Part shown: positions 1-56,467 of the stretch, piece by piece
Position numbering within the stretch: the stretch's first letter is position 1
Layout: the number at the start of each line of letters is the position of its first letter
DNA from: Chamaelirium japonicum
Taxonomy: Eukaryota > Streptophyta > Magnoliopsida > Liliales > Melanthiaceae
Direction of reading: 5' to 3'
Assembly: GCA_947650365.1 (NCBI GenBank)
Contig: CANTAL010000027.1
Location: forward strand, 496,001 to 560,000
DNA: 64,000 nucleotides
Program-made: the position numbers and the translations under genes
Notes under the pieces: generated by a model
Databases searched by the model: none
Seen by the model: only the letters and a program-made list of their open reading frames with translations
What the model was told of the DNA's origin: nothing

Positions 1-970
1 CATACGATCCATTCTAATTCATTCATACGATCCATTCTATTTCGTTCGTATGATTCATTCTAATTAATTCATACGATCCATTCTATTTCATTCGTACGAT
101 CCATTCTTACTCATTCGTATGATCCATTCTAATTCATTCGCACGATCCAATCTAATTCATTCGCACAATCCATTGTAATTCTTTCGTACGATCCATTCTA
201 TTTCATTCGTACGATCCATTCTTACTCATTCGTATGATCCATTCTAATTCATTCGCACGAAGGTATCCATTCTAATTCATTCGTACGATCCATTCTAATT
301 CATTCGCACGATCCATTCTGATTCATTCATATGATCCATTCTAATTCACTCGTACGATCCATTCTAATTCATTCATACAATCCATTCTAATTCTTTCGCA
401 CGAATGTATCCATTCTAATTCATTCGTACGATCCATTCTAATTTGTTCGCACGATCCATTCTAATTCATTCATATGATCCATTCTAATTCATTCGTACGA
501 TCCATTCTAATTCATACGTACGATCCATTCGAATTCATTCATACGATCCATTCTAATTCATTCATACGATCTATTCTAATTCATTCGCACGAATATATTC
601 ATTCTAATTCATTCGTACGATCCATTCTAATTCATTCGCACGATTCAATCTAATTTATTCGCATGATCCATTGAAATTGATTCGTACGATCCATTCTATT
701 TCATTCATACGATCCATTCTTACTCATTCGTACGATCCATGCTAATTCATTCGCACGAATGTATCCATTCTAATTCATTCGTACGATCCATTCTAATTCA
801 TTCGCACGATCCATTCTAATTCATTCATACGATCCATTCTAATTCATTCGTACGATCCATTCTAATTCATTCGCACAATCAATTCTAATTCATTCGTATG
901 ATCCATTCTAATTCATTAGCACGATCCATTCTAATTCATTCGCACGATCCATTCTAATTCATTCATGCAA

Positions 971-988
971 TAGAATTAGAATGGATTG
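971..988 (-). repeat. Micro-inversion of about one unit
   Basis: TAGAATTAGAATGGATTG reads in reverse orientation between forward units ending ATTCATGCAA and starting CACGAATGTATCC. It is shorter than one full unit. Confidence 0.8.
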
Positions 989-1960
989 CACGAATGTATC
1001 CATTCAAATTCATTCGTACGATCCATTCTAATTCCTTCGTACGATCCATTCTAATTCCTTTGTATAATCCATTCTATTTCATTCGTACGATTCATTCTAT
1101 TTCATTTGTATGATCCATTCTAATTCCTTCATTCGATCCATTCTAATTCATTCCCACGAATGCATCCATTCTAATTCATATGTACGATCCATTCTAATTC
1201 ATTCATACGATCCAATCTAATTCATTCATACGATCCATTCTAATTCATTCGCACGAATGTATCCATTCTAATTCATTCGTACGATCCATTCTAATTTATT
1301 CGCACAATCTATTCTAATTCATTCGTACGATCCATTCTAGTTCATTAGCACGATCCATTCTAATTCATTCGTACGATCCATTCTATTTCATTCTTACTCA
1401 TTCGTACGATCTATTCTAATTCATTCGCACGAATGTATCCATTCTAATTCATTTGTACGATCTATTCTAATTCATTCACACGATCCAATCTAATTCATTC
1501 ATACGATCCAATCTAATTCATTCATACGATCCATTCTAATTCATTCGCACGAATGTATCCATTCTAATTCATACATACGATCCATTCTAATTCATTCGCA
1601 CAATCTATTCTAATTCATTCGTACGATCCATTATAATTCATTAGCATGATCCATTATAATGGATTCGTACAGTCCATTCTTTTTCATTCGTACGATCCAT
1701 TCTTACTCATTCGTACGATCCATTCTAATTCATTCGCACGAATGTATCCATTCTAATTCATTCGTACGATCCATTCTAATTCATTCGCATGATCCATTCT
1801 AATTCATTCATACGATCCATTCTAATTCATTCGTACGATCCATTCTAATTTATTCGCACGATCAATTCTAATTCATTCATACGATCCATTCTAATTCATT
1901 CATACAATCCATTCTAATTCTGTCGCACTAATGTATCCATTCTAATTTATTCGTACGATC

Positions 1961-2818
1961 CACCATAATTCCTTCGTATGATCCATTCTAATTCATTCGC
2001 ACGAATGTATCCATTCTAATTCATTCGTACGATCCATTCGAATTCATTCATACGATCAATTCTAATTCATTCATACGAACCATTCTAATTCATTCGCACG
2101 AATGTATCCATTCAAATTTATTCGCACGATCCATTCTAATTCATTCGCACAATCTATTCTAATTCATTCGTACGATCCATTCTAATTCATTAGCATGATC
2201 CATAATAATTCATTCGTACGATCCATTCTATTTCATTCGTACGATCCATTCTAACTTATTAGCACAATCCATTCTAATTCATTCGCACGATCCATTCTAA
2301 TTCATTCATACGATCCATTCTAATTCATTCATACAATCCATTCTAATTCTTTCGCACGAATGTATCCATTCTGATTCATTCGTACGATCCACCCTAATTC
2401 CTTCGTATGATCCATTCTAATTCATTCGCACGAATGTATCCATTCTAATTCATTCGTACGATCCATTCGAATTCATTCATACGATCCATTCTAATTCATT
2501 TATACGATCCATTCTAATTCATTCGCACGAATGTATCCATTCTAATTCATTTGTACGATCCATTCTAATTCATTCGCATGATCTATTCTAATTCATTCGT
2601 ACAATCTATTCTAATTCATTAGCACGATCCATTCTAATTCATTCGTACGATCCATTCTTACTCATTCGTACATTCCATTATAATTCATTCGCACGAATGT
2701 ATCCATTCTAATTCATTCGTACGATCCATTCTAATTCATTCGCACGATCCATTCTAATTCATTCGTACGATCCATTCTAATTCATTCGTACGATCCATTC
2801 TAAGTCATTCGCACGATC
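1961..2818 (+). repeat. 429-bp higher-order repeat, two copies
   Basis: The marker variant CACC(A/C)TAATTCCTTCGTATG lies at 1961 and again at 2390, 429 bp apart, which equals fifteen 23-bp plus three 28-bp units. Other markers keep their order in both copies: the 28-mer after CTTTCG or CTGTCG, then CACCMTAATTCC, the 28-mer, CCATTCGAATTC, the 28-mer, the ATTAGCA unit. Spacing of the ATTAGCA marker (1641, 2190, 2629) shows the period is not fixed. Confidence 0.75.
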
Positions 2819-2843
2819 CATTCTAATTCATTCACACAATCTT

Positions 2844-3081
2844 TTCTAATTCATTCGTAATTCATTCGCACGATCATTCAGGTGTTTAGGTTGCGGCCTT
2901 AGACTTTGTATTTGGTTGAATACAAAGGTGCACCTTTGAACGTTAGTTGATCGTGGGGAGACCCTGTGTGATCCATTCTAATTCATTCAAAGGTGCACCT
3001 TTGAATTCAACCAATACAAAGTCTGAGGTCGCAACGTAAACTTCTGAATGATCGTGCGAACGAATTACGAATGAATTAGAA
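2844..3081. repeat. Inverted repeat around the non-satellite island
   Basis: The arms are 2844-2940 and 2986-3081. The inner parts (2875-2940, 66 bp, and 2986-3050, 65 bp) are non-satellite and match as reverse complements with six substitutions and one gap, about 89% by hand alignment. The outer parts are satellite and share the same unusual shortened unit (GTAATTC joined to TTCGCACGAT), so the arms are true inverted copies. The outer edges are CATTCAG and CTGAATG. Each arm also holds the 16-bp palindrome CAAAGGTGCACCTTTG (2923-2938 and 2988-3003). The satellite is forward to the left and reverse to the right. I recognise no transposon family or coding frame. A fold-back or MITE-like remnant, or a captured unique fragment later inverted, are both possible. 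Confidence 0.9.
2941..2985. other. Spacer between island arms
   Basis: About 29 bp of non-satellite DNA (CGTTAGTTGATCGTGGGGAG and onward, ending GTGTG near 2970) runs into most of one forward satellite unit (GATCCATTCTAATTCATTC, 2970-2988). A satellite unit therefore sits inside the hairpin loop. No function is recognised. Confidence 0.85.
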
Positions 3082-5810: not shown

Positions 5811-5820
5811 TAGAATGGAT
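5801..5820. repeat. CTATAG palindromic strand switch
   Basis: ATCCATTCTATAGAATGGAT is a perfect 20-bp palindrome joining forward to reverse units in mid-core. Copies lie at 8986, 52746, 58071 and, with a decayed left side, 63360. Confidence 0.95.
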
Positions 5821-8526
5821 ACATTCATGGGAATGAATTAGAATCGATCGTGCGAAGGAATTAGATTGGATCATACGAATGAATTAGAATGGATCGTATG
5901 AATGAATTCGAATGGATCATACGAATGAATTAGAATAGATTGTTCGAATGAATTAGAATGGATCGTACGAATGAATTAGAATGGATACATTCGTGCGAAA
6001 GAATTAGAATGGATTGTATGAATGAATTAGAATGGATCGTGCAAATGAATTAGAATGGATCGTGCGAATGAATTAGAATGGATCGTACGAATGACTTAGA
6101 ATAGATTGAGCGAATGAATTAGAATGGATCGTACGATTGAATTAGAATGGATACATTCGTGCAAATGAATTAGAATGGATAGTATGAATGAATTAGAATG
6201 GATCGTATGAATGAATTCGAATGGATCGTGCGAATGAATTAGAATGGATACATTCGTGCGAATGAATTAGAATGGATCATACAAAGGAATTAGGGTGGAT
6301 CGTACGAATGAATTAGAAAGGATACATTCGTGCGAGAGAATTAGAATGGATTGTATGAATTAATTAGAATGGATCGTATGATTGAATTAGAATGGATCGT
6401 GCAAATTAATTAGAATGGTTCGTGCTAATGAATTAGAATAGATCGTACGAATGAATTAGAATAGATTGTGCGAATGAATTAGAATGAATCGTACGAATGA
6501 ATTAGAATGGATCGTATGAATGAATTAGAATGGATCGTGCGAATGAATTAGAATGGATCGTACGATTAAATTAGAATGCATACATTCGTGCAAATGAATT
6601 AGAATGGATCGTACGAGTAAGTAAGAATGGATCGTACGAATGAAATAGAATGGAACGTACGAATGAATTAGAATGGATCGTGCTAATGAATTAGAATGGA
6701 TCGTACGAATGAATTAGAATAGATTGTGCGAATGAATACATTCGTGCAAATGAATACATTCGTGCGAATGAATTAGAATGGATCGTATGAATGAATTAGA
6801 ATGGATAGTATGAATGAATTAGAATGCATCGTATGAATGAATTCGAATGGATTGTACGAATGAATTAGAATGGATACATTCGTGCGAATGAATTAGAATC
6901 GATCGTACGAATGAAATAGAATATATCCATTCTAATTCTAATTCATTCATAGAATGGATCGTACGAAGGAATTAGAATGGACCATACGAATGAATTAGAA
7001 TGGATCGTACGAATGAATTAGAATGGATTGTGTGAATGAATTAGATTGGATCGTGCGAATGAATTAGAATGGATCGTACGAATAAATTAGAATGGATACA
7101 TTCGTGCGAATGAATTAGAATGGATCGTATGAATGAATTAGAATGGATCGTATGAATTAATTTGAATGGATCGTACGAATGAATTAGAATGGATCGTGCG
7201 AATGAATTAGAATGGATCGTACGAATGAATTAGAATTGATCGTATGAATGAATTCGAATGGATCGTGCGAATGAATTAGAATGGATCGTAGGAATGAATT
7301 AGAATGGATCGTAGGAATGAATTAGAATGGATCGTATGAATGAATTCGAATAGATCGTACGAATGAATTAGAATGGATACATTTGTGCGAATGAATTAGA
7401 ATGGATCATACGAAGGAATTAGGGTGGTTCACACGAATGAATTAGAATGGATACATTCGTGCGAAAGAATTAGAATGGATTGTATGAATGAATTAGAATG
7501 GATCGTATAAATGAATTAGAATGGATCGTGCGAATGAATTAGAATGGATCGTGCAAATGAATTAGAATGGATCGTATGAATGAATTAGAATGGATCATGC
7601 GAATGAATTAGAATGGATCGTACGGAAGAATTAGAATGGATACATTCGTGCGAATGAATTAGAATGGATCATACGAATGAGTAAGAATGGATCGTACGAA
7701 TGAAATAGAATGGATCGTACAAATGAATTAGAATGGATTGTGCTAGTGAATTAGAATGGATCGTACGAATGAATTAGAATAGATTATGCGAATGAATTAG
7801 AATGGATCATACGAATGAATTAGAATGGATACATTCGTGTGAATGAATTGGAATGGATCGTATGAATGAATTAGATTGGATCGTATGAATGAATTAGAAT
7901 CGATCATTCGAATGACTTAGAATGGATCGTACGAATGAATTAGAATGCATACATTAGTGCGAATGAATTAGAATGGATCATATGAATGAGTAAGAATGGA
8001 TCGTACGAATGAAATAGAATGGATCGTACGAATGAATTAGAATGGATCGTGCTAATGAGTTAGAATAGATCGTACGAATGAATTAGAATAGATTGTGCGA
8101 ATGAATTAGAATAGATCATACGAATGAATTAGAATGGATACATTCGTACGAATGAATTAGAATGGATCGTATGAATGAATTAGATTGGACCGTATGAATA
8201 AATTAGAATGGATCGTACGTATGAATTAGAATGGATACATTCATGGGAATGAATTAGAATGGATCGTACGAAGGAATTAGAATGGATCATACGAATGAAA
8301 TAGAATGGATCGTACGAAGGAATTAGAATGTATCGTACGAAGGAATTAGAATGGATCGTACGAAGGAATTAGAATGGATCATACGAACAAAATAGAATGG
8401 ATCGTACGAAGGAATTAGAATGGATCGTACGTTTTGAATGAATTAGAATGGATCGTACGTATGAATTAGAATGGATACATTCATGGGAATGAATTAGAAT
8501 GGATCGTACGAATGAATTAGAAGGGA
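5811..8526 (-). repeat. Reverse satellite block 6
   Basis: Begins with the ACATTCATGGGAATG marker right after the CTATAG centre and ends at GGATCC 8524-8529. Contains the forward micro-insert 6923-6950 and several GGAATTAGGGTGG variant units. Confidence 0.93.
6923..6950 (+). repeat. Forward micro-insert
   Basis: ATCCATTCTAATTCTAATTC then ATTCAT, with a duplicated CTAATT step, sits inside reverse units (AGAATATATCC to the left, CATAGAATGG to the right). An almost identical insert lies at 10320-10349. Confidence 0.9.
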
Positions 8527-8995
8527 TCCATTCTAATTCATTCTAATTCATTCGTAAGATCCATTCTAATTCATTCATACGATCCATTCTAATTCATTCA
8601 TACGATCCAATCTAATTCATTCATATGATACATTCTAATTCATTAGCACGAATGTATCCATTCTAATTCATTTGTACAATCGATTCTAATTCATTCGCTT
8701 GATCCAATCTAATTCATTCGCACGATCCATTCTAATTCATCATTCGCACAATCCATTCTAATTCATTCGTACGATCCATTCTAATTCATTAGCACAATCC
8801 ATTCTAATTCATACGTATAATCCATTCGTTTTCTTTCGTACGATCTATTCTTCCTCATTCGTACGATCCATTCTAATCCATTCGCACGAATATATCCATT
8901 CTAATTCATTCGTACGATCCATTCTAATTCATTCGCACGATCCATTATAATCCATTCATACTATCTATTCTAATTCATTCATACGATCCATTCTA
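8527..8995 (+). repeat. Forward satellite block 7
   Basis: From GGATCC 8524-8529 to the CTATAG palindrome 8986-9005. Copy of block 5, about three units longer. Confidence 0.93.
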
Positions 8996-9005
8996 TAGAA
9001 TGGAT
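8986..9005. repeat. CTATAG palindromic strand switch, copy
   Basis: Same 20-bp perfect palindrome as at 5801 and, like it, followed by ACATTCATGGGAATG. Confidence 0.95.
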
Positions 9006-12000
9006 ACATTCATGGGAATGAATTAGAATCGATCGTGCGAAGGAATTAGAATGGATCATCCGAATGAATTAGAATGGATCGTATGAATGAATTCGAATGG
9101 ATCGTACGAATGAATTAGAATAGATTGTTCGAATGAATTAGAATGGATCGTACGAATGAATTAGCATGCATACATTCGTGCGAAAGAATTACAATGGATT
9201 GTATGAATAAATTAGAATGGATCGTGCAAATGAATTAGAATGGATCGTGCGAATGAATTAGAATGGATCGTACGAATGACTTAGAATAGATTGTGCGAAT
9301 GAATTAGAATGGATCGTACGAATGAATTAGAATGGATACATTCGTGCGAATGAATTAGAATGGATCGTATGAATGAATTAGAATGGATCGTATGAATGAA
9401 TTCGAATGGATCGTGCGAATGAATTAGAATGGATACATTCGTGCGAATGAATTAGAATGGATCATACGAAGGAATTAGGGTGGATCGTACGAATGAATTA
9501 GAATGGATACATTCGTGCGAAAGAATTAGAATGGATTGTATGAATTAATTAGAATGGATCGTATGAATGAATTAGAATGGATCGTGCGAATGAATTAGAA
9601 TGGATCGTACGAATGAATTAGAAAGGATCGTATGAATGAATTAGAATGGATCGTGTGAATGAATTAGATGGATCGTACGAATGAATTAGAATGGATACAT
9701 TTGTGCGAATTAATTAGAATGGATCGTACGAATCAGTAAGAATGGATCGTACGAATAAAATACAATAGATCATACGAATGAATTAGAATGGATCGTGCTA
9801 ATGAATTAGAATGGATCGTACGAATGAATTAGAATAGATTGTGCGAATGAATTAGAATGGATCGTACGAATGAATTAGAATGGATCGTATCAATGAATTA
9901 GAATGGATCGTGCGAATGAATTAGAATGGATCGTACGAATGAATTAGAATGGATACATTCGTGCGAATGAATTAGAATGGATCGTACGAATAAGTAAGAA
10001 TGGATCGTACGAATGAAATAGAATGGATCGTACGAATGAATTAGAATGGATCGTGCTAATGAATTAGAATGGATCGTACGAATGAATTAGAATAGATTGT
10101 GCGAATAAAAACATTCGTGCGAATGAATACATTCGTGCGAATGAATTAGAATGGATCGTATGAATGAATTAGAATGGATCGTATGAATGAATTAGAGTGG
10201 ATAGTATGAATGAATTAGAATGCATCGTATGAATGAATTCGAATGGATTGTACGAATAAATTAGAATGGATACATTCATGCGAATGAATTAGAATGGATC
10301 GTACGAATGAAATAGAATGTATCCATTCTAATTCTAATTCATTCATAGAATGGATCGTACGAAGGAATTAGAATGGACCGTACGAATGAATTAGAATGGA
10401 TCGTACGAATGAATTAGAATGGATCGTGTGAATGAATTAGATTGGATCGTGCGAATGAATTAGAATGGATCGTACGAATAAATTAGAATGGATACATTCG
10501 TGCGAATGAATTAGAATGGATCGTATGAATGAATTAGAATGGATCGTATGAATGAATTCAAATGGATCGTACGAATGAATTAGAATGGATCGTGCAAATG
10601 AATTAGAATGGATCGTTCGAATGAATTAGAATGGATCGTATGAATGAATTCGAATGGATCGTACGAATGAATTAGAATGGATCGTGCGAATGAATTAGAA
10701 TGGATCGTAGGAATGAATTAGAATGGATCGTATGAATGAATTCGAATGGATCGTACGAATGAATTAGAATGGATACATTTGTGCGAATGAATTAGAATGG
10801 ATCATATGAAGGAATTAGGGTGGTTCATACGAATGAATTAGAATGGATACATTCGTGCGAAAGAATTAGAATGGATTATATGAATGAATTAGAATGGATC
10901 GTATGAATGAATTAAAATAGATCGTGCTAATGAATTAGAATGGATCGTACAAATGAATTAGAACGGATCGTATGAATAAATTAGAATGGATCGTGCGAAT
11001 GAATTAGAATGGATCGTACGAAAGAATTAGAATGGATACATTCGTGTGAATGAATTAGAATGGATCGTACGAATGAGTAAGAATGGATCGTACGAATGAA
11101 ATAGAATGGATAGTACGAATGAATTAGAATGGATCGTCCTTATGAATTAGAATGGATCGTACGAATGAATTAGAATAGATTATGCGAATGAATTAGAATG
11201 GATTATACGAATGAATTAGAATGGATACATTCGTGCGAATGAATTGGAATGGATCGTATGAATGAATTAGATTGGATCGTATGAATGAATTAGAATGGAT
11301 CGTTCAAATGACTTAGAATGGATCGTACGAATGAATTAGAATGCATACATTCGTGCGAATGAATTAGAATGGATCGTACGAATGAAATAGAATGGATCGT
11401 ACGAATGAATTAGAATGGATCGTGCTAATGAATTAGAATGGATCGTACGAATGAATTAGAATAGATTGTGCGAAGGAATTAGAATAGATCATACAAATGA
11501 ATTAGAATCGATACATTCGTACGAATGAATTAGAATGGATCGTATGAATGAATTAGATTGGATCGTATGAATGAATTAGAATGGATCATACGTATGAATT
11601 AGAATGAATACATTCATGGAAATGAATTAGAATGGATCGTACGAAGGAATTAGAATGGATCATACGAATGAAATAGAATGGATCGTACGAAGGAATTAGA
11701 ATGGATCGTACGAAGGAATTATAATGGATACATTCGTGCAAAAGAATTAGAATGGATTGTATGAATGAATTAGAATGGATCGTGCAAATGAATTAGAATG
11801 GATCGTGTGAATAAATTAGAATGGATCGTATGAATGAATTAGAATAGATTATGTGAATAAATTAGAATGGATCGTACGAATGAATTAGAATGGATATATT
11901 CGTGCGAATAAATTAGAATAGATCGTATGAATGAATTAGAATGGATCGTATGAATGAATTCGAATGGATCGTTCGAATGAATTAGAAAGGATCGTACGAA

Positions 12001-23150: not shown

Positions 23151-24108
23151 TAGCACGATCCATTCTAATTCATTCGCACGAATGTATCCATTCAATTTCA
23201 TTCGTACGATGCATTCTTACTCATTCGTACGATCCATTCTAATTCATTCGCACGAATGTATCCATTCTAATTCATTCGCACGAATGTATCCATTCTAATT
23301 CATTCGTACAATCCATTCTAATTCATTCGCACAATCCATTCTAATTCATTCAAATGATCCATTCTAATTCGTTTGCACAAATGTATCCATTCTAATTCAT
23401 TCGTACGATCCAATCTAATTCCTTCGTACGATCCATTCTAATTCCTTCGTACGATCCATTCTATTTCGCACGATCCATTCTAAGTCATTCGTACGATCCA
23501 TTCTATTTCGCACGATCCATTCTAATTCCTTTTTATGATCCATTCTATTTCGTACGATCCATTCTATATCGCACGAATGCATCCATTCTAATTCCGTCGT
23601 ACGATCCATTCTCTTTCGCACGATCCATTCTAAGTCATTCGTACGATCCATTCTAATTCATTCGCACGATCTATTCTTATTCATTCGTACGATCCACTCT
23701 AATTCATTCGCACGATCTATTCTAATTCATTCATACGAGCTATTCTAATTCATTCGTACGATCCTTTCTAATTCATTCGCACGATCTATTCTAATTCATT
23801 CATACGATCCATTCTAATTCATTCATACAATCCATTCTAATTCTTTCGCACCAATGGATCCATTATAATTCATTCGTACGATCACTTCTATTTCATTCGT
23901 ACGATCCATTCTTACTCATTCGTATGATCCATTCTAATTAATTCGCACGATCCATTCTAATTCATTCATATGTTCCATTCTGTTTCATTCGTACGATCCA
24001 TTCTTACTCATTCGTGCGAATTCATTCTAATTCATTCGCACGATCCATTCTAATTTATTCGCACGATCCATTTTAATTCATTCATACGATCCATTCTAAT
24101 TCATTCGT
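23151..24108 (+). repeat. Forward satellite block 15
   Basis: Includes a cluster of shortened units at about 23462-23640 (TTTCGCACGATCC, TTTCGTACGATCC) in which the AATTCA half of the core is missing. A minus-strand open frame of 78 codons (23415-23651) is a by-product of these shortened units. Confidence 0.92.
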
Positions 24109-25754
24109 ACGAAGGAATTAGAATGGATTGTGCGAATGAATTAGAATGGATCGTACGAATAAATTAGAATCGATACATTCGTGCGAATGAATTAGAATGG
24201 ATCGTATGAATGAATTAGATTGGATCGTATGAATGATTTAGAATGGATCGTACGTATGAATTTGAATGGATACATTCAAGGGAATGAATTAGAATGGATC
24301 GTACGAAGGAATTAGAATGGATCGTACGAAGGAATTAGAATGGATCGTACGAATGAATTAGAATGGATACATTTGTGCAAAAGAATTAGAATGGATTGTA
24401 TGAATGAATTAGAATGGATCGTACAAATGAATTAGAATGGATCGTGCGAATGAATTAGAATGGATCGTATGAATGAATTCGAATGGATCGTATGAATGAA
24501 TTCGAATAGATCATATGAATGAATTAGAATGGATACATTCGTGCGAATGAATTAGAATGGATCGTACGAGTGAGTAAGAATGGATCGTACGAATGAATTA
24601 GAATGGATCGTATGAATGAATTAGAATGGATCATGCGAATGAATTAGAATGGATCGTACGAATGAATTAGAATGGATACATTCGTGCGAATGAATTAGAA
24701 TGGATCGTACGAATGAGTAAGAATGTATCGTACGAATGAATTCGAATGGATCGTACGAATGAATTAGAATGTATTAGGAATTAGAATGGATCGTATGAAT
24801 TAATTCGAATGGATCGTACGAATGAATTAGAATGGATACATTTGTGCGAATGAATTAGAATGGATCATACGAAGGAATTAGGGTGGATTTTACGAAAGCA
24901 TTAGAATGGATACGTTCGTGCGAAAGAATTAGAATGGATTGTATGAATGAATTAGAATGGATCGTATGAATGAATTAGAATGGATCGTATGAATGGATTA
25001 GAATGGATCGTATGAATGAATTAGAATGGATCATAGGAATGAGTAAGAATCGATCATACGAATGAAATAGAATGGATCGTACGAATGAGTAAGAATGGAT
25101 CGTACGAATAAAATAGAATGGATCGTACGAATGAATTAGAATGGATCGTGCTAATGAATTGCAATAGATCATACGTATGAATTAGAATAGATTGTGTGAA
25201 TGAATTAGAATGGATCGTATGAATGAATTAGACTAGATACATTCGTGCGAATGAATTAGAATGGATCGTATAAATGAATTAGAATGGATTGTATGAATGA
25301 ATTAGAATGGATCGTGCAAATGAATTAGAATGGATCGTGCGAATGAATTAGAATGGATCGTACGAATGAATTAGAATGGATTGTGTGAATGAATTAGAAT
25401 GGATCGTACGAATGAAGTAGAATGGATACATTCGTGCGAATGAATTAGAATGGATCATATGAATGAATTAGAATGGATCGTATGAATGAATTCGAATGGA
25501 TCGTACGAATGAATTAGAATGGATACATTCGTGCGAATGAATTAAAATGGATCATACGAAGGAATTAGGGTGGCTCGTACGAATGAATTAGAATGGATAC
25601 ATTCGTGTGAAAGAAATAGAATGGATCGTACGAATGAATTAGAATGGATCATGCTAATTAATTAGAATGGATCGTACGAATGAATTAGAATAGATTGTGC
25701 GAATGAATTAGAATAGATCGTACGAATGAATTAGATTGAATCGTATGAATGAAT
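24109..25754 (-). repeat. Reverse satellite block 16
   Basis: Begins at GTAC 24107-24110 with GAAGGAATTAG. Contains GTATTAGGAATTAG near 24772. Ends in ATGAATTAGCATGTTCC. The open frame 24975-25172 on the minus strand is repeat-derived. Confidence 0.92.
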
Positions 25755-26339
25755 TAGCATGTTCCATTCTAATTCATTCATACGAATGTATCCATTCTAT
25801 TTCATTCGTACGATCCATTCTAATTCAATCGCACGATCCATTCTAATTCATTCAAACGATCCATTCTTATTCTTTTGCACGAATGTATCCATTCTAATTC
25901 AATCGTACGATCCATTCTAATTCCTTCGTACGATCCATTCTAATTCCTTAGTACGATCCATTCTCTTTCGCACGATCCATTCTAAGTCATTCGTACGATC
26001 CATTCTAATTCATTCACACGATCTATTCTTATTCATTCGTACGATCCACTCTAATTCATTCGCACGATCTATTCTAATTCATTCGTACGATCCATTAGAT
26101 TCATTCGTACGATCCATTCTAATTCATTCGCACGATCCATTCTAATTCATTCGCACGATCCTTTCTTACTCATTCGTACTATCCATTCTAATTCATTCGC
26201 ACGATCCATTCTAATTCATTCATATGATCCATTCTATTTCATTTGTACGATCCATTCTTACTCATTCGTGTGAATTCATTCTAATTCATTCGCACGATCC
26301 ATTCTAATTCATTCATACGATCCATTCTAATTCATTTGT
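25755..26339 (+). repeat. Forward satellite block 17
   Basis: Contains the CTCTTTCGCACGATCCATTC shortened unit also present in block 15 (near 23611), supporting common descent. Confidence 0.92.
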
Positions 26340-29300
26340 ACGAAGGAATTAGAATGGATTGTGCGAATGAATTAGAATGGATCGTACGAATGAATTAGAA
26401 TGGATACATTTGTGCGAATGAATTAGAATGGATCGTATGAATGAATTAGATTGGATCGCATGAATGATTTAGAATGGATCGTACGTATGAATTAGAATGG
26501 ATACATTCATGGCAATGAATTAGAATACATTGTACGAGGAAATTAGAATGCATCGTACGAAGGAATTAGAATGGATTGTACGAATGAATTAGAATGGATA
26601 CATTCGTGCAAAAGAATTAGAATGGATTGTAGTAATAAATTAGAATGGATCGTACAAATGAATTAGAATGGATCGTGCGAATGAATTAGAATGGATCGTA
26701 TGAATGAATTAGAATGGATCGTATGAATGAATTCGAATGGATAGTATGAATGAATTAGAATGGATACATTCGTGCGAATGAATTAGAATGGATCGTACGA
26801 ATGAGTAAGAATGGATCGTACGAATGAATTAGAATGGATCGTATGAATGAATTAGAATGGATCATGTGAATGAATTAGAATGGATCGTACGAATGAATTA
26901 GAATGGATACTTTCGTGCGAATGAATTAGAATGGATCGTACGATTGAGTAAGAATGGATCGTACGAATGAAATAGAATGGATCGTACGAATGAATTAGAA
27001 TGCATCGTACGAATGAATTCGAATGGATCAGACGAATGAATTAGAATGTATTAAGAATTAGAATGGATCGTATGAATGAATTCGAATGGATCGTACGAAT
27101 GAATTAGAATGGATACATTCGTGCGAATAAATTAGAATGGATCATACGAAGGAATTAGGGTGGATCGTACGAATGAATTAGAATGGATACGTTCGTGCGA
27201 AAGAATTAGAATGGATTATATGAATGAATTAGAATGGATCGTATGAATGAACTAGAATGGATCGTATGAATGGATTAGAATGGATCGTATGAATGAATTA
27301 GAATGGATCGTATGAATGAGTAAGAATGGATCGTACGAATGAAATAGAATGGATCGTACGAATGAGTAAGAATGGATCGTACGAATGAAATAGAATGGAT
27401 CGTACGAATGAATTAGCATGGATCGTGCTAATGAATTGGAATGGATCGTACGAATGAATTAGAATAGATTTTGTGAATGAATTAGAATGGATCGTACGAA
27501 TGAATTAGAATGGATACATTCGTGCGAATGAATTAGAATGGATCGTATGAATGAATTAGATTGGGTCGTATGAATGAATTAGAAAGGATCGTACCTATGA
27601 ATTAGAATGGATACATTCATGGGAATGAATTAGAATGGATCTTACGAAGGAATTAGAATGGATCATACTAATGAAATAGAATGGATCGTATGAAGGAATT
27701 AGAATGGATCGTACGAAGGAATTAGAATGGATCGTACGAAGGAATTAGAATGGATACATTCATGCAAAAGAATTAGAATGGATTGTATGAATGAATTAGA
27801 ATGGATCGTGCAAATGAATTAGAAAGGATCGTGCGAATGAATTAGAATGGATCGTACAAATGGATTAGAATAGATTGTGCGAATGAATTAGAATGGATCG
27901 TACGAATGATTTAGAATGGATACATTCGTGCGAATGAATTAGAATGGATCGTATGAATGAATTCGAATGGATCGTACGAATGAATTAGAATGGACACATT
28001 CGTGCGAATGAATTATAATGGATCATACGAAGGAATTAGGGTGGATCGTACGAATGAATTAGAATGGATACATTCGTGCGAAAGAATTAGAATGGATTTT
28101 ATAAATGAATTAGAATGGATCGTATGAATAAATTAGAATGGATCGTGCGAATGAATTTGAATGGATCGTACGAATGAATTAGAATGGATCGTATGAATGA
28201 ATTATAATAGATCGTACGAATGAATTTGAATGGATCGTACGAATGAATTACAATGGATACATTCGTGCGAATGAATTAGAATGGATTGTACGAATGAGTA
28301 AGAATAGATCGTACGAATGAAATAGAATGGATCGTACGAATGAATTAGAATGGATCGTGCTAATGAACTAGAATAGATTGTACGAATGAATTAGAATGGA
28401 TCGTACGAACGAATTAGAATGGATCGTATGAATGAATTAGAATGGATCGTACGAATGAATTAGAATGGATACATTCGTGCAAATGAAATTAGAATGGATC
28501 GTACGAATGAGTAAGAATGGATCTTACGAATAAAATAGAATGGATCGTACGAATGAATTAGAATGGATCGTACTAATGAATTAGAATGGATCGTATGAAT
28601 GAATTAGTATGGATTGTGCGAATGAATTACAATGGATCGTACAAATGAATTAGAATAGATCGTATGAATGAATTAGAATGGATCGTGTGAATGATTTAGA
28701 ATGGATCGTACGAATGAATTAGAATGGATACATTCGTGCGAATAAATTAGAATGGATTGTATGAATGAATTAGAATGGATCGTATGAATGAATTAGAATG
28801 GTTCGTGCGAATGAATTAGAATGGATCGTACGAATTAATAAGAATGGATCGTACGAATGAATTAGAATGGATCGTGCGAATGAATTAGAATAGATCGTAC
28901 GAATGAATTAGAATGGGTACATTTGTGCGAATGAATTAGAATGGATCGTACGAAGGAATTAGAATGGATCATACGAATGAAATTAAATTGATCGTACGAA
29001 GGAATTAGAATGGATCGTACGAATGAATTAGAATGGATACATTCGTGCAAAAGAATTAGAATGGATTGTATGAATGAATTAGAATGGATCGTATGAATGA
29101 ATTAGAATGGATCGTGCGAATGAATTAGAATGGATCGTACGAATGAATTAGAAAGGATACATTCGTGCGAATGAATTAGAATGGATCGTACAAATGAGTA
29201 AGAATGGATCGTACGAATGAAATAGAATGGATCGTACGAATGAATTAAAATAGATCGTGCGAATAAATTAGATTGGATCATGCGAATGAATTAGAATGGA

Positions 29301-30609
29301 TCGTACGAATGAATTAGAATGGATACATTCGTGCGAATGAATTAGAATGGATCGTATGAATGAATTAGAATGGATCGTATGAATAAATTTGAATGGATCG
29401 TACATATGAATTAGAATGGATCGTACGAATGAATTAGAATGGATCTTACGAATGAATTAGAATGGATCGTGTGAATGAATTAGAATGGATCGTATGAATG
29501 AATTAAAATGGAAACATTCGTGCGAAAGAATTAGAATGGATTGTATGAATGAATTAGAATGGATCGTACGAATTAGAATGGATCATATGAATGAATTAAA
29601 ATATATCGTGCGAATGAATTAGAATGGATCGTACGAATGAATTAGAATGGATACATTCGTGCGAATGAATTAGAATGGATCGTATGAATGAGTAAGAATG
29701 GATCGTACGAATGAAATAGAATGGCTCGTACGAATGAATTAGAATGGATCGTGCGAATGAATTAGATTGGATCATATGAATGAATTGGAATGGATGGTAT
29801 GAATGAATTAGAATGGATCGTGCGAATGAATTAGAATAGATACATTCGTGCGAATGAATTAGAATGGATACATTCATGCGAATGAATTAGAATGGATCGT
29901 ACGAATGAATTAGAATGAATCGTATGAATGAACTCGAATGGATCGTATGAATGAATTCGAATGGATCGTACGAATGAATTATGATGGATACATTCCTGCG
30001 AATGAATTAGAATGGATCATACGAAGGATTTAGGGTGGATCGTACGAATGAATTAGAATAGATACATTTGTGCAAAAAAATTAGAATGGATCGTGCGAAT
30101 GATTTAGAATGGATCGTACGAATGAATTAGAATGGATCGTCTGAATAAATTAGAATGAATCTTGTGAATGAATTAGAATGGATCGTATGAATTAGAATGG
30201 ATTGTATGGATGAATTAGAATGGATCGTATGAATGAATTAGAATGAATCATGCGAATGAATTAGAATAGATTGTGCGAATGAATTAGAATGGATCGTGCG
30301 AATGAATTAGAATGAATCGTACGAATGAATTAGAATGGATCCTATGAATGAATTAGAATGGATCGTGCTAATGAATTAGAATGGATCGTACGAATGAATT
30401 AAAATGGATCATACGAAGGAATTAGGGTGGATCGTACGAATGAATTAGAATGGATATATTCATGCGAAAGAATTAGAATGGATTGTATGAATGAATTAGA
30501 ATGGATCGTGCGAATGAATTAGAATGGATCGTACGAATGAATTAGAATAGATTATGCGAATGAATTAGAATGGATCGTACGAATGAACTAGAATGGATCG
30601 TATGAATGA
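26340..30609 (-). repeat. Reverse satellite block 18 (~4.3 kb)
   Basis: Long reverse block. Minus-strand open frames at 28862-29050 and 29596-29877 (the longest, 93 codons) are satellite read-through. Ends in ATGAATTAGCACGATCC. Confidence 0.93.
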
Positions 30610-31366
30610 ATTAGCACGATCCATTCTAATTCATTCGCACGAATGTACCCATTCTATTTCATTCGTATGATCCATTCTTACTCATTCGTACGATCCATTC
30701 TAAATCATTCGCACGAATGTATCCTTTCTAATTCTTTCGTACAATCCATTCTAATTCATTCGCACGATCCATTCTAATTCCTTCATACGTTCCATTCTAA
30801 TTCCTTCATACGATCCATTCTAATTCATTCATACAATCCATTCTAATTTTTTCGCACGATCCATTCTAAGTCATTCGTACAATCCATTCTAATTCATTCG
30901 CACGATCTATTCTTATTCATTCGTACGATCCACCCTAATTCATTTGCACGATCTATTCTAATTCATTCGTACGAGCTATTCTAATTCATTTGTACGATCC
31001 ATTCTAATTCATTCGTACGATCCATTCTATTTCAATCGCACGATCCATTCTAATTCATTCATACGATCCATTCTAATTCATTCATACAATCCATTCTAAT
31101 TATTTCACACGAATAGATCCATTCTAATTTATTCGTACGATTTATTCTATTTCATTCGTACGATCCATTATTACTCATTCGTACGATCCATTCTAATTCA
31201 TTCGCACGATCCATTCTAATTCATTCATACGATTATTTTATTTCATTCGTACGATCCATTCTCACGCATTCGTGCGAATTCATTCTAATTCATTCGCATG
31301 ATCCATTCTAATTCATTCGCACGATCCATTCTAATTGATTCATACGATCCATTCTAATTCATTCGT
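30610..31366 (+). repeat. Forward satellite block 19
   Basis: Shares the order of variants with block 15, including the GAGCTATTC unit (30984 and 23737) and the GTGCGAATTCATTC unit just before the end. Confidence 0.92.
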
Positions 31367-33011
31367 ACGAAGGAATTAGAATGGATTGTGCGAATGAATT
31401 AGAATGGATCGTATAAATGAATTAGAATGGATACATTCGTGCGAATGAATTAGAATGAATCGTATGAATGAATTAGATTGGATCGTATGAATGAATTAGA
31501 ATGTATCGTACATATGAATTAGAATGGATACATTCATGGGAATGAATTAGAATGGATCGTACGAAGGAATTAGAATGGATCGTACGAAGGAATTAGAATG
31601 GATACATTCGTGCAAAAGAATTAGACTGGATCGTGCGAATGAATTAGAATAGATCATACGAATGAATTGGAATAGATTGTGCGAATGAATTAGAATGGAT
31701 CGTACGAATGAATTTGAATAGATACATTCGTGCGAATGAATTAGAATGGATCGTATGAATGAATTAGAATGGATCGTATGAATGAATTCGAATGGATCGT
31801 ATGAATGAATTAGAATGGATACATTCGTGCGAATGAATTAGAATGGATCGTATGAATGAGTAAGAATGGATCGTACGAATGAATTAGAATGGATCGTATG
31901 AATGAATTAGAATGGATCGTGCGAATGAATTAGAATGGATCGTACGAATGAATTAGAATGGATACATTCGTGCGAATGAATTAGAATGGATTGTACGAAT
32001 GAGTAAGAATGGATCGTACGAATGAAATAAAATGGATCGTATGAATGAATTAGAATCTATCGTACGAATGAATTCGAATGGATCGTATGAATGAATTAGA
32101 ATGTATTAGGAATTAGAATGGATCGTATGAATGAATTCGAATGGATCATACGAATGAATTAGAATGGATATATTCGTGCGAATGAATTAGAATGGATCAT
32201 ACGAAGGAATTAGGGTGGATCGTACGAATGAATTAGAATGGATACATTCGTGCGAAAGAATTAGAATGGATTGTATGAATGAATTAGAATGGATCGTATG
32301 AATGGATTAGAATGGATCGTATGAATGAATTAGATTGGATCGTACGAATGAGTAAGAATGGATCGTACGAATGAAATAGAATGGATCGTACGAATGAGTA
32401 AGAATGGATCGTACGAATGAAAAAGAATGGATCGTACGAATGAATTAGAATGGATCGTGCTAATGAATTAGAATGGATCGTACGAATGAATTAGAATAGG
32501 TTGTGCGAATGAATTAGAATGGATCGTACGAATGAATTAGAATAGATACATTCGTGCGAATGAATTAGAATGGATCGTATGAATGAATTAGATTGGATCG
32601 TATGAATGAATTAGAATGGATCGTACGTATGAATTTGAATGGATACATTCATGGGAATAAATTAGAATGGATCGTACGAAGGAATTAGAATGGATCGTAC
32701 GAATGAATTAGAATGGATCGTACGAATGAATTAGAATGGATACATTCGTGCGAATGAATTAGAATGGATCGTATGAATGAATTAGAATGGATCATATGAA
32801 TGAATTCGAATGGATCGTACGAATGAATTAGAATGGATACGTTCGTGTGAATGAATTAGAATAGATCATACAAAGGAATTAGGGTGGATCGTACGAATGA
32901 ATTAGAATGGATAGATTCGAGCGAAAGAATTAGAATGGATTGTATGAATGAATTAGAATGGATCGTATAAATGAATTAGAATGGATCGTGCGAATGAATT
33001 AGAATGGATCG
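31367..33011 (-). repeat. Reverse satellite block 20
   Basis: Starts GAAGGAATTAGAATGG. Ends at GGATCGCACGTATGTATCC (33007 onward), a switch through a decayed 28-bp linker. Confidence 0.92.
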
Positions 33012-48655: not shown

Positions 48656-49084
48656 TTCGTGCGAATGAATTAGAATGGATCATACGAATGAATCGTGCGA
48701 ATGAATTAGAATGGATTGTGCGATTGAATTAGAATGAATCGTATGAATGAATCGTGCAAATGAATTAGAATGGATCGTACGAATGAATTAGAATGGATCG
48801 TACAAATGAATTAGAATGGATTCATTCCCATGGATAAATTCGTGGAAATGAATTAGAATAAATCGTATGAATGAATTAGATTTGATCGTATGAATGAATT
48901 AGAATGGATCGTACGTATGAATTAGAATGGATACATTCATGCGAATGAATTACAATGGATCATACGAAGGAATTAGGGTGGATCGTACGAATGAATTAGA
49001 ATGGATATATTCGTGCGAACGAATTAGAATGGATCGTATGAATGAATTAGAACGGATCGTGTGAATGAATTAGAATAGAATGGA
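48656..49084 (-). repeat. Reverse satellite block 38
   Basis: Contains a scrap of forward linker, GGATTCATTCCCATGG (48826-48841). Ends AATAGAATGGATCCATTC with GGATCC 49082-49087. Confidence 0.92.
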
Positions 49085-50214
49085 TCCATTCTCATTCATT
49101 CGTATGATCCATTCTAATTCACTCATACGATCCATTCTAATTCATTCACACGATCTATTCTAATTCATTCATACGATCCATTCTAATTCATTAGCACGAT
49201 CCATTCTAATTCATTCGTACGATCCATTCTATTTCATTCGTATGATCCATTCTTACTCATTCCTACGATCCATTCTAATTCATTCGCATGAATGTATCCA
49301 TTCTAATTCATTCATACGATCCATTCTAATTCATTCGCACGATCCATTCTAATTTATACATACGATCCATTATAATTCATTCATACAATCCATTCTAATT
49401 CTTTCGCACGAATGTATCCATTCTAATTCATTCGTACGATCCATTCTAATTCATTCGAACGATCCATTCTAATTCATTCATACGATCCATTCTAATTCAT
49501 TCGTACGATCCATTCTAATTCATTCGCACAATCCATTCTAATTCCTTCGTACGATCCATTCTAATTCCGTCGTACGATCCATTCTAATTCCGTCGTACGA
49601 TCCATTCTAATTCATACGATCCATTCTAATTCATTCATACGATCCATTCCAATTCATTCGCTCTAATTCCTTCGTACGATCCATTCTAATTCTTTTGTAC
49701 GATCCATTCTAATTCCTTCGTACGATCCATTCAATTTCATTCGTATGATCCATTCTAATTCCTTCATACGATCCATTCTAATTCATTCCCATGAATGTAA
49801 CCATTCTAATTCATACATACGATCCATTCTAATTCATTCATACGATCCAATCTAATTCATTCATATGATCCATTCTAATTCGTTCGCACGAATGTATCCA
49901 TTCTAATTCATTCATACGATCCATTCTAATTCATTCGCATAATCTATTCTAATTCATTCGCACGATCCATTATAATTCATTCTAATTCATTCATACAATC
50001 CATTCTAACTCATTCTTATTCATTCGCACGATCTATTCTTATTCATTCGTACGATCCATTCAATCAAATTCATTCGCACGATCCAATCTAATTCATTCGC
50101 ACGATCCTTTCTAATTCATTCGCACGAATGTATCCTCATTCGCACGATCTATTCTAATTCATTTGCACGATCCATTCTAATTCATTCATACAATCCATTC
50201 TAATTCATTCGCAC
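49085..50214 (+). repeat. Forward satellite block 39
   Basis: Includes shortened units near 49610 (ATTCATACGATCC), 49655 (CATTCGCTCTAATTCC) and 50105-50140 (GTATCCTCATTCG). Ends CGCACTAATGAATTAG. Confidence 0.92.
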
Positions 50215-50719
50215 TAATGAATTAGAATGGATCGTACGAATGAAATAGAATGGTTCGTACGAATGAATTAAAATGGATACATTCGTGCGAATGAATAAGA
50301 ATGGATCGTATGAATGAATTAGAATGGATCGTATGAATAAATTAGAATGGATTGTACGAATGAATTAGAATAGATCGTATGAATGAATTAGAATTGATCG
50401 CATGAATGAATTAGAATGGACCACGCGAATGAATAAGAATGGATCGTACAAATGATGCGAATGAATAAGAATGGATCGTACGAATGAATTAGAATGGATA
50501 CATTCGTGCGAATGAATTAGAATGGATCGTACGATAAGTAAGAATGGATCGTATGAATAAAATAGAATGGATCGTACGAATGAATTAGAATTGATCGTGC
50601 CAATGAATTAGAATGGATCGTACGAATGAATTAGAATAGATTGTGCGAATGTATTAGAATGGATCGTACGAATGAATTAGAATGGATCGTGCGAATGAAT
50701 AAGAATGGATCGCACGATT
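50215..50719 (-). repeat. Reverse satellite block 40
   Basis: Holds a shortened pair, ACAAATGATGCGAATG (50449). Ends CGCACGATTGAATACATTC. Confidence 0.9.
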
Positions 50720-51103
50720 GAATACATTCTAATTCATTAGCACGATCCATTCTAATTCATTCGTACGATCCATTCTATTTCATTCGTACGATCCATTCTT
50801 ACTCATTCGTACGATCGATTCTAATTCATTCGCACGAATGTATCCATTCTAATTCATTCGTACAATCCATTCTAATTCCTTCGTACGATCCATACTATTT
50901 CATTCATACGATCCATTCTAATTCATTCATATAATCCATTCTAATTCTTTTGCACAAATGTATCCATTCTAATTCATTCGTACGATCCACCCTAATTTCT
51001 TCGTATGATCCATTCTAATTCATTCGCACAAATGTATCCATTCTAATTCATTCGTATGATCCATTCGAATTCATTCATATGATCTATTCTAATTCATTCG
51101 CAC
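50720..51103 (+). repeat. Forward satellite block 41
   Basis: Begins ACATTCTAATTCATTAGCAC. Ends CGCACGAAGGAATTAAATTGG. Confidence 0.9.
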
Positions 51104-52023
51104 GAAGGAATTAAATTGGATCGTACGAATAAATGAATTAGAATGGATAATACGTACGAATGTATTAGAATGGATACATTCGTGCGAAAGAATTAGAATG
51201 GATTGCATGAATGAATTAGAATGGATCGTATGAATGAAATAGAATGGATCGTACGAATGACTTAGAATGGATCGTACGAATGAATTAGAATGGATACATT
51301 CGTGCGAATGAATTAGAATGGATCGTACGAATTTGTAAGAATGGATCGTACGAATGAAATAGAATGGATTGTACGAATGAATTAGAATGGATCATGCTAG
51401 TGAATTAGAATGGATCGTACGAATGAATTAGAATAGATTGTGCGAATGAATTAGAATGGATCGTACGAATAAATTAGAATGGATCGTATGAATGAATTAG
51501 AATGGATCGTGCAAATGAATTAGAATGGATCGTACGAATGAATTAGAATGGATACATTCGTGCGAATGAAGTAGAATGGAGTGTATGAATGAATTAGAAT
51601 GGATCGTATGAATGAATTAGAATGTATCGTGCGAATGAATTAGAATGGATCGTACGAATGAATTAGAATGGATCGTGCGAATGAATTAGAATGGATCGTA
51701 CGAATGAATTAGAATGGATACATCCGTGCGATTAAATTAGAATGGATCGTACGAATCCGTAAGAATGGATCGTACGAATGAAATAGAACGGATCGTACGA
51801 ATCCGTAAGAATGAATCGTACGAATGAAATAGAACGGATCGTACGAATGAATTAGAATGGATCGTTCTAATAAATTAGAATGGATCGTACGAATGAATTA
51901 GAATGGATCGTAAGAATGAATTAGAATGGATTGTATGAATGAATTAGATCGTGCGAATGAATTAGAATGGATCGTACAAATAAGTAAGAATGGATCGTAC
52001 GAATGAAATAGAATAGATCATAC
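51104..52023 (-). repeat. Reverse satellite block 42
   Basis: Holds a 46-bp local duplication. Ends AATAGATCATACGTACGATCC, homologous to the 14061-14090 palindrome and its left flank (ACAAATAAGTAAGAATGG). Confidence 0.92.
51757..51848 (-). repeat. 46-bp local tandem duplication
   Basis: CCGTAAGAATG recurs at 51757 and 51803, exactly two units apart, with the same AGAACGG variant. Copy 2 of the 5.3-kb segment has it once (57123), so this arose after or was lost from the other copy. Confidence 0.9.
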
Positions 52024-52755
52024 GTACGATCCATTCTAATTCATTCATATGATCCATTCTAATTCTTCGCACGATTGAATCCATTCTAATTCATTCGTAC
52101 GATCCATTCTAATTCATTTGCACAATCTATTCTAATTCATTCGTACGATCCATTCTAATTCTTTCGCACGATCCAATCTAATTCATTCGCACGATCCATT
52201 CTAATTCATCATTCGCACAATCTATTCTAATTCATTCGTATGATCCATTCTAATACATTAGCATGATCCATTCTAATTCATTCGTACGACCCATTCTATT
52301 TCATTCATATGATCCATTCTTACTCATTCGTAAGATCCATTCTAATTCATTCGCACGAATATATCCATTCTAATTCATTCATACGATCCATTCTAATTCA
52401 TTCGCACGAATATATCCATTCTAATTCATTCGTACGATCCATTCTAATTCATTCGCACAATCTATTCTAATTTATTCGTATAATCCATTCTAATTCATTC
52501 GCACGATCCATTCTATTTCATTTGCACGATCCATTCTAATTCATTCATACAATCCATTCTAATTCTTTCGCACGAATGTATCCATTCAAATTCATTCGTA
52601 CGATCCATTCCAATTCATTCGCACAATCTATTCTAATTCATTTGTGCGATCCATTTGAATTTATTCATACGATCCATTCTAATTCATTCGTATGATCTAT
52701 GCTAATTCCTTCGTATGATCCATTCAAATTCATTCCCATGAATGTATCCATTCTA
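52024..52755 (+). repeat. Forward satellite block 43
   Basis: Contains the shortened ATTCATCATTCGCAC unit (near 52206), also at 5555, 8739, 57533 and 63109. Ends at the CTATAG palindrome. Confidence 0.92.
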
Positions 52756-52765
52756 TAGAATGGAT
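52746..52765. repeat. CTATAG palindromic strand switch, copy
   Basis: Same 20-bp palindrome as 5801, but here the left flank is the 28-bp linker (GAATGTATCC) and the right flank continues CGTACGAATG. Confidence 0.95.
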
Positions 52766-53224
52766 CGTACGAATGAATTAGAATGGATCGTATGAATGAA
52801 TTTGAATGGATCGTGCGAATGAATTAGAATGGATCGTAAGAATTAATTAGAATGGATACATTCGTGCGAAAGAATTAGAATGGATCGTACGAATGGGTAA
52901 GAATGGATTGTACGAATGAAATAGACTGGATCGTATGAATAAATTAGAATGGATCGTGCTAATGAATTAGAATAGATCGTACGAATGAATTAGAATATAT
53001 TGTGCGAATGATGAATTAGAATGGATCGTGCGAATGAATTAGATTGGATCGTGCGAATGAATTAGAATGGATCGTACGAATGAATTAGAATGGATACATT
53101 TGTGCGAATGAATTAGAATGGATCGTATGAATGAATTAGATTGGATCGTATGAATGAATTAGAATGGATCGTATGAATGAATTAGAATGGATCGTACGAA
53201 TGAATTAGAATGAATTAGAATGGA
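52756..53224 (-). repeat. Reverse satellite block 44
   Basis: Includes the shortened GCGAATGATGAATTAG unit (53005). Ends with doubled GAATTAGAATG before GGATCC 53222-53227, like blocks 22 and 26. Confidence 0.92.
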
Positions 53225-53963
53225 TCCATACTAATTCCTTCATACGATCCATTCTAATTCATTCCCTTGAATGTATCCATTCTAATTCATACATTCGATC
53301 CATTCTAATTCATTCATAACATATGATCCATTCTAATTCCTTCATACGATCCATTCTATTTCATTCGTATGATCCATTCTAATTCCTTCGTACGATCCAT
53401 TCTAATTCATTCTCATGAATCTATCCATTCTAATTCATACGTACGATCCATTCTAATTCATTCATACGATCCAATCTAATTCAATCATACGATACATTCT
53501 AATTCATTCGCACGAATGTATCCATTCTAATTCATTCGTACGATCTATTCTAATTCATTTGCACAATCTATTCTAATTCATTCGTACGATACATTCTAAT
53601 TCATTAGCACGATCCATTCTAATTCATTCACACGATCCATTCTAATTCATTCATACAATCCATTCTAGTTCTTTCGCATGAATGTATCCATTCTAATTCA
53701 TTCATGCGATCCACCCTAATTCCTTCGTACGATCCATTCTAATTCATTCGCACGAATGTATCCATTCTAATTCATTCGTACGATCCATTCGGATTCATTC
53801 ATACGATCCTTTCCAATTCATTCATACGATCCATTCTAATTCATTTGCACAAATGTATCCATTCTAATTTATTCGTACGATCCATTCCGATCCAATCTAA
53901 TTCATTCATTCGATCCATTCTAATTTATTCGCACGAAGGTATCCATTCTATTTCATTCCATTC
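53225..53963 (+). repeat. Forward satellite block 45
   Basis: Spans the join between the two 5.3-kb copies (~53610). It opens with CCATACTAATTCCTTC and an ATTCATAACATATG variant. Confidence 0.92.
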
Positions 53964-54389
53964 GTGCGAATGAATTAGAATGGATCATATGAATGAATCG
54001 TGCGAATAAATTAGAATGGATTGTGCGAATGAATTAGAATGAATCGTATGAATGAATCGTGCAAATGAATTAGAATGGATCGTACGAATGAATTAGAATG
54101 GATCGTACAAATGAATTAGAATGGATTCATTCCCATGGATACATTCGTGGAAATGAATTAGAGTGGTTCGTATGAATGAATTAGATTTGATCGTATGAAT
54201 GAATTAGAATGGATCGTACGTATGAATTAGAATGGATACATTCGTGCGAATGAATTAGAATGGATCATACGAAGGAATTAGGGTGGATCGTACGAATGAA
54301 TTAGAATGGATATATTCGTGCGAATGAATTAGAATGGATCGTATGAATGAATTAGAATGGATCGTGTGAATGAATTAGAATAGAATGGA
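53964..54389 (-). repeat. Reverse satellite block 46
   Basis: Copy of block 38 with the same GGATTCATTCCCATGG scrap. GGATCC 54387-54392. Confidence 0.92.
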
Positions 54390-56086: not shown

Positions 56087-56467
56087 ATACATTCTAATTC
56101 ATTAGCACGATCCATTCTAATTCATTCGTACGATCCATTCTATTTCATTCGTACGATCCATTCTTACTCATTCGTACGATCGATTCTAATTCATTCGCAC
56201 GAATGTATCCATTCTAATTCATTCGTACGATCCATTCTAATTCCTTCGTACGATCCATTCTATTTCTTTCATACGATCCATTCTAATTCATTCAGATAAT
56301 CCATTCTAATTCTTTTGCACAAATGTATCCATTCTAATTCATTCGTACGATCCACCCTAATTCCTTCGTATGATCCATTCTAATTCATTCGCACAAATGT
56401 ATCCATTCTAATTCATTCGTATGATCCATTCGAATTCATTCATATGATCTATTCTAATTCATTCGCA
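56087..56467 (+). repeat. Forward satellite block 49
   Basis: Copy of block 41, bounded by GATTGAATACATTC and CGCACGAAGGAATTAAATTGG. Confidence 0.92.

Follow-up and report, generated by a model that had tools for sequence, protein, structure and literature searches.

A Palindrome of Probable Fold-Back Origin as a Marker in the Apparent Holocentromere Satellite of Chionographis japonica

Introduction

Fold-back inversions are built as inverted duplications around a short, unduplicated spacer. In yeast with intact Mre11-Sae2, the hairpin loops predicted for such events have a median length of 36 nt (PMC7467729). At 13 junctions of fold-back duplications in humans the inverted microhomology measures 2–8 bp, and the spacers there are far longer (PMC3907307). 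The palindrome described here shares with the events described in these two reports (PMC7467729, PMC3907307) an inverted duplication, a short unduplicated loop, and possibly an inverted microhomology of a few bases. It differs from them in lying inside satellite DNA, in having diverged arms, in existing in well over a hundred copies, and in the extent of its mirrored part, which does not exceed a few hundred bp.

A second point of reference is the centromere repeat of Chionographis japonica, which is listed by NCBI as Chamaelirium japonicum. The Chio arrays of this plant bind CENH3 and consist of satellite units of 23 and 28 bp in mixtures of forward and reverse orientation, and both the mixed orientation and the dyad symmetries of Chio are already published (PMC10264360). 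The same source describes an assembly of 12 chromosome scaffolds (N50 of 81.11 Mb; 1.526 Gb of contigs; 58.5x HiFi coverage) and a measured genome size of 1.368 Gb. Since the assembly is larger than the measured genome, unpurged haplotigs are likely.

Retrotransposon-derived tandem repeats make up a third comparison, as they are known to occur in plant centromeres (PMC3648361, PMC7004042). The likeness is that retroelement DNA has apparently been amplified in centromeric or satellite DNA. The difference is that the scrap in the present array does not itself form the repeat unit but occurs as a rare insert where the satellite inverts. The palindrome is read in this report as a fossil fold-back joint that is now a hitch-hiking marker in the satellite of the apparent C. 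japonica holocentromere, and the probability of this reading is put at about 0.72. The reading assigns the palindrome no function in the cell.

Anatomy of the Palindrome

The window is the whole stretch of DNA that was analysed, 64,000 nucleotides at C39:496001-560000 of the assembly. Its features are as follows.

1-2843, forward strand: 23-bp satellite array, with a short reversed stretch near 973-996
2844-2875, forward strand: left flank, satellite with a shortened unit that is mirrored on the other side
2876-2938 (63 bp), forward strand: left arm, a fragment that is similar to a dispersed retroelement's 95-bp tandem repeat and ends in the 16-bp palindrome CAAAGGTGCACCTTTG (2923-2938)
2939-2969 (31 bp), forward strand: non-satellite part of the loop; its common form, together with the last six arm bases and the next GATC, agrees at 39/41 positions with non-coding retroelement DNA at L047
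2970-2987 (18 bp), forward strand: satellite part of the loop, the start of a forward 23-bp unit (GATCCATTCTAATTCATT), inside which the strand switch presumably lies
2988-3049 (62 bp), reverse strand: right arm, an inverted copy of the left arm
3050-3081, reverse strand: right flank, reverse satellite with the mirrored shortened unit
3082-64000, mixed strands: 23/28-bp satellite in alternating orientation

When the two arms (63 and 62 bp) are aligned, 56 of 63 columns are identical (88.9%), and the total loop measures 49 bp (2939-2987). The 16-bp core is found at 2923 and 2988. With up to two substitutions allowed, the shortened-unit motif TTCATTCGTAATTC occurs in the window at 2850, at 3062 in reverse, and at one other site, 36003. 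The satellite is in forward orientation on the left of the palindrome and in reverse on the right. Within the 64-kb window, the only long runs free of satellite k-mers are 2876-2968 and 2990-3049; the next-longest uncovered run is 29 bp and resembles degenerate satellite. The interval 2876-3049 is the only clear non-satellite DNA of the window. These measurements bear out the anatomy drawn in the earlier note, namely arms that are ~89% reverse complements, each holding the core and continuing outward into satellite with the same shortened unit, a loop made of a satellite unit plus ~29 bp of other DNA, a flip of satellite orientation, and an absence of other non-satellite DNA from the stretch.

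The interval 2844-3081 folds into one hairpin of -97.7 kcal/mol. Among 200 shuffles (mean -22.7, sd 3.35) none was as low, and a chance inverted repeat is ruled out by this comparison. The overall build is an inverted duplication around a short unduplicated spacer, as in fold-back inversions, and it is present in two-arm form in 83 of the 107 places read in the genome.

Orientation Switches in the Surrounding Satellite

Tandem repeat periods in the window (TRF) are 23 and 28, and both units occur in mixed orientation, as they do in Chio arrays. The window satellite is most likely Chio1/Chio2, the CENH3-bound holocentromere repeat of C. japonica, an identity drawn from the period and the mixture of forward and reverse 23- and 28-bp units. 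The surrounding array resembles Chio1/Chio2 in its unit lengths, mixed orientation, and dyad symmetries. A palindrome of apparent retroelement derivation lies inside the array described here. The genome paper reports that Chio does not resemble annotated transposable elements (PMC10264360).

Viterbi segmentation of the whole window gave 67 orientation switches, which are not all independent, as several are copies of one another via higher-order repeats. The palindrome lies at one of them and is absent from the other 66. Roughly half of the forward-to-reverse switches (16/34) share an axis at the GTAC dyad of the 23-bp unit, and 15/33 of the reverse-to-forward switches share a different one at the GATC dyad of the same unit. 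Since it is found at 1/67 switches, the palindrome does not explain satellite inversion in general. The suggestion in the earlier note that it might record how the first inversion arose is not supported by the same counts, with many of the remaining switches on the satellite’s own dyads.

A higher-order repeat of ~5.3 kb is present twice at 48657-58596. It carries eight matching switches (e.g., 48665/53970, 49083/54388, and 53223/58564), which indicates that orientation switches were copied along with the repeat. Duplicated switch patterns are also seen at 5811-10348 and 23153-31371, with spacings of ~3.2–3.4 kb and ~7.3–7.5 kb.

The switches also bear on whether the palindrome is itself active, with its hairpin breaking or stalling forks and thereby driving new inversions or seeding spread between centromere units. 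Its very stable fold, its spread over many arrays, and the existence of forms in which the right arm has been deleted (class C and the copy at L088, described below) speak for such activity. A role of this kind is nevertheless very unlikely, given the 66 window switches that have no palindrome and the many ordinary switches centered on the satellite’s own dyads.

Copies in the Genome

The genome searched comprised 1,518,659,071 bases. In it, the 16-bp core has 291 exact sites, including the two in the window. A search with the 177-bp palindrome returned 458 candidates, and all 40 of the 40 that were scored match over the full length at 96–100%. The folded joint has 173 genome matches at three or fewer mismatches, and at least 9 of the 12 chromosome scaffolds carry the palindrome.

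The spacer-bearing places that were read number 107. They comprise 83 two-arm copies (class A), 17 of class B, five of class C, one copy whose right arm was lost in another way (L088), and one non-satellite place (L047). This set omits L001-L005, L010, L011, L018, L033, L034, L131, and L135-L142. For instance, L005 is the window’s own copy, L018, L033, and L034 duplicate copies in L035, L049, and L042, and L010 and L011 were left out though two-arm, being the same two C1 copies as L001-L004.

The earlier note had proposed mapping other copies and asking whether each sits at an orientation switch, and they do. All 106 satellite copies, or tags, have the same forward-to-reverse switch across them (83/83 in class A, 17/17 in class B, 5/5 in class C, and 1/1 in the other form). 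The shortened unit stands beside the left arm in 99/106; the remaining seven are without it in the stretch searched, and in two of these, L071 and L074, the arms are trimmed and the motif may lie beyond that stretch. A flip and a shortened unit held in common point to one ancestral joint copied many times, which would be the simplest reading of the sequences. A perfectly matching arm pair is found in 0/83 two-arm copies.

Drosophila Foldback (FB) transposons have long inverted arms of short tandem repeats around a loop, like the palindrome. Long inverted arms and a loop, in many copies on several chromosomes, would also suit a non-autonomous fold-back transposon or MITE with a preference for satellite, and the earlier note had raised a fold-back transposon remnant or MITE as a possibility. 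In contrast to FB elements, there is no sign of transposition here: the insertion point and flanks are common to the copies, and the mirror continues into the satellite without target-site duplication. The uniform flip and the shared shortened unit argue for one common insertion point, and the 100 arm sites listed of 299, not all of which were fetched, are all in tag-bearing satellite blocks. The transposon candidate was rejected on the common flanks and flip, and its probability is remote.

An assembly artefact, either a false fold-back join or a hairpin library chimera, is scarcely credible. Palindromes are trouble spots for assembly, and with 1.526 Gb assembled against 1.368 Gb measured, some copies may be haplotigs. 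Against this, dozens of copies with differing point mutations stand in different places of a 58.5x HiFi assembly.

One-Arm Forms

Several forms possess a single arm. In class B, the spacer GTGTGAT is joined to reverse satellite, and 98 such joints were found at three or fewer mismatches. In class E, 12 spacer bases are followed by reverse satellite; this arrangement was seen at 7/8 of the single-arm sites fetched. Classes B and E share the left joint and could be older than the palindrome. In class C, the spacer TGATC is joined to the sequence that, in two-arm copies, comes after the TGATC of the right flank, the mirrored shortened unit included. Point changes aside, fusing a class-A loop to its right flank at TGATC gives the class C sequence, which marks class C as a deletion derivative of the two-arm form.

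Two further joints were looked for. A right-arm-only joint gave one convincing match, at C8:69189814 (1 mismatch), and the other 7/8 matches, each with 3 mismatches, resemble plain satellite. The predicted unfolded joint, with the loop running into a full forward unit, had no genome matches at three or fewer mismatches, compared with the 173 for the folded-joint pattern of equal length; the intermediate was thus lost or never existed.

These forms bear on a different route to the palindrome, in which two facing one-armed joints (e.g., B- or E-like) recombined at a common GATC in place of one fold-back step. One-arm joints are common, as the class B and class E counts attest, and GATC is present in the 23-bp unit. 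In addition, the right arm viewed from outside resembles another one-arm joint, with the arm and then reverse satellite directly after CCTTTGAA. However, the right-arm-type joint such recombination calls for was found once, and class C derives from the two-arm form. Recombination of two joints is accordingly considered unlikely, and a single fold-back step is preferred.

Source of the Inserted DNA

The DNA beside the satellite, called unique in the earlier note, is not unique. The spacer plus six arm bases agrees with L047 at 39/41 positions and scores 72, where 200 shuffles reached 31 at most; about half of this identity is by construction, L047 having been chosen via an exact 20-base match. 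A 22-base piece of the spacer has 190 genome matches, tags included. Of 100 of these matches that were listed, 20 were fetched, and at 19/20 the spacer stands in non-satellite DNA, the exception (L131) being a class-B tag; part of the identity at these sites is likewise by construction, as they were picked away from tag clusters by exact 22-base match.

Results for the arm are more varied. Its score against the 95-bp tandem repeats of L047 was reached by 0/1000 shuffles. The same was true of L132 in forward orientation (0/1000), which was the best of 21 stretches and so pre-selected. The score against reversed L132 was reached by 266/1000 shuffles, and that against the 72-bp repeats of L047 by 94/1000. 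With plainer scoring, alignment of the arm by itself to all of L047 gave 28, a value that the best of 200 shuffles matched. The idea that the arm is the stretch just upstream of dispersed spacers was rejected as mostly shuffle-level: over 21 sites, 539/2100 shuffles reached the observed scores, the best single sites being L132 and L118 (0/100 shuffles each). The 95-bp repeat fits the arm better than these upstream stretches do.

L047 bears tandem arrays of its own, 72-bp and 95-bp, at 579-936 and 1602-2001.

Homology to a dispersed non-satellite repeat was thus found for the spacer and, more weakly, for the arm. Judged from the alignments, homology to a dispersed retroelement is firm for the spacer and probable for the arm, and the inserted DNA evidently derives, at least in part, from the non-coding DNA of such an element. 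The forward strand of L047 holds TTTGGCGCCGTCTGTGGGA, a plant primer-binding site motif, and by this motif the source element is a candidate LTR retrotransposon.

Proposed Fold-Back Origin

The fold-back origin can be set out in three steps. First, a ~93-bp, internally shortened scrap of retroelement non-coding DNA would have entered a forward satellite array at GATC, an event suggested by the homology seen above. Second, we infer from the anatomy that the 3′ end, lying in the first satellite unit past the scrap (...CATTC), snapped back, that TTC paired with GAA just inside the arm, and that the scrap and the outer satellite were then copied in reverse. The product would have been a 49-nt loop plus a mirrored flank. 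Third, the joint, whose copies are observed, was probably amplified together with its satellite within and between chromosomes. Later, class C lost its right arm via deletion between TGATC repeats.

Two-arm copies turn once the loop has crossed GATC and entered a forward unit; the loop ends ...CATTC, and the arm interior reads ...TTTGAACG. The inverted microhomology at the turn is 3 nt (TTC/GAA) and was read directly, although so short a match can be chance. A fold-back duplication of a joint between satellite and other DNA, as put forward in the earlier note, explains the mirrored arms and shortened unit, the single-copy loop that enters a forward unit, and this microhomology.

Mirroring of the flanks was examined in 69/83 two-arm copies, namely those with boundaries found and full flanks. 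The mirrored flank is clear in the 17 A1-like copies, of which 13, 9, and 11 exceeded 95% of the controls for the same copy at 0–50, 50–150, and 150–250 bp, respectively. It is weaker in A2-like copies, the window’s kind, with corresponding numbers of 5, 8, and 28 of 52. In an ungapped shift test, zero shift was best in only 15/69 copies; unit gains or losses may have blurred the ungapped mirror. A strong mirror reaching far into the flank was rejected, having been cut down by the shift test and by a larger control set.

Spread Between Chromosomes

Exact spacers are located on C1-C5, C7-C10, and unplaced contigs, and none is on C6, C11, or C12 among the matches listed (100 of 152, in contig order, reaching C73). 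One class-B joint is on C12, with all 98 class-B joints listed. Relatedness was assessed over ~650 bp in the 59/83 two-arm copies that are placed on chromosome scaffolds. The nearest relative was on another chromosome for 33 copies, in the same block for 19, and elsewhere on the same chromosome for seven, with blocks defined by the analyst from position. In 1000 label shuffles, same-block nearest relatives averaged 4.8 and reached at most 15. Along the tree the chromosome label changes 30 times, whereas 200 shuffles gave 40.6 changes on average and never fewer than 35. By both measures, the tags show local clustering plus much cross-chromosome kinship, the latter to be read in light of satellite contigs that may be misplaced in scaffolds and of haplotigs that are likely unpurged. 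For example, tag pairs on C2 (3389972/3398503) and C4 (91672378/91680909) have an equal spacing of 8,531 bp, and two tag pairs between these scaffolds differ by 0.3 and 0.6%.

Repetition at larger scales was also observed. Along C39 and along C45, class-B tags turn up repeatedly on one strand; intervals between the first five on C39 are 276–326 kb, the rest are less regular, and a very long higher-order repeat along these contigs is possible. Two C45 tags are 98–99% like the window’s, and C45 may be a second copy of C39, perhaps the other haplotype.

On C10, two tag pairs (61879832, 61901918, 62347152, and 62369238) are offset by exactly 467,320 bp; over ~650 bp one is identical and the other nearly so, reflecting either a recent duplication or an assembly duplicate. 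Tag positions on C5 at 79.6–80.6 and 85.1–86.1 Mb mirror each other as if in a ~1-Mb inverted copy, the cause being either a genuine duplication or a haplotig that was put into the scaffold.

The chances are about even that one captured retroelement joint was repeatedly exchanged between centromere units of different chromosomes of this holocentric plant, in blocks tens of kilobases long.

Significance

The palindrome was not found in the published literature searched, which took in passages of PMC10264360 and PMC12722358. Cluster CL73, a Chio-containing higher-order repeat described in the genome paper (PMC10264360), could include it. It is a real joint, apparently of single origin, most likely formed by fold-back from a retroelement scrap and carried by a holocentromere satellite; events of this kind are known, and the setting is unusual. 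It illustrates at sequence level how the orientation of a satellite can flip.

Its main value is as a natural tracer of centromere DNA spread. Tracing a satellite of nearly uniform 23-bp units is difficult. The tag is rare, long enough to bear mutations of its own, and confined to some arrays. On C1, for instance, every exact core site is within 114.56–118.67 Mb, and satellite-like matches are at many other C1 places (100 of 240,276 listed). The spread of Chio arrays to about 100 centromere units was left open by the genome authors, who named conversion, inversions, and eccDNA (PMC10264360). If repeated exchange is true, tag subfamilies record the route by which the holocentromere satellite spread, and they could tell interlocus conversion in shared chromocentres apart from reinsertion of eccDNA.
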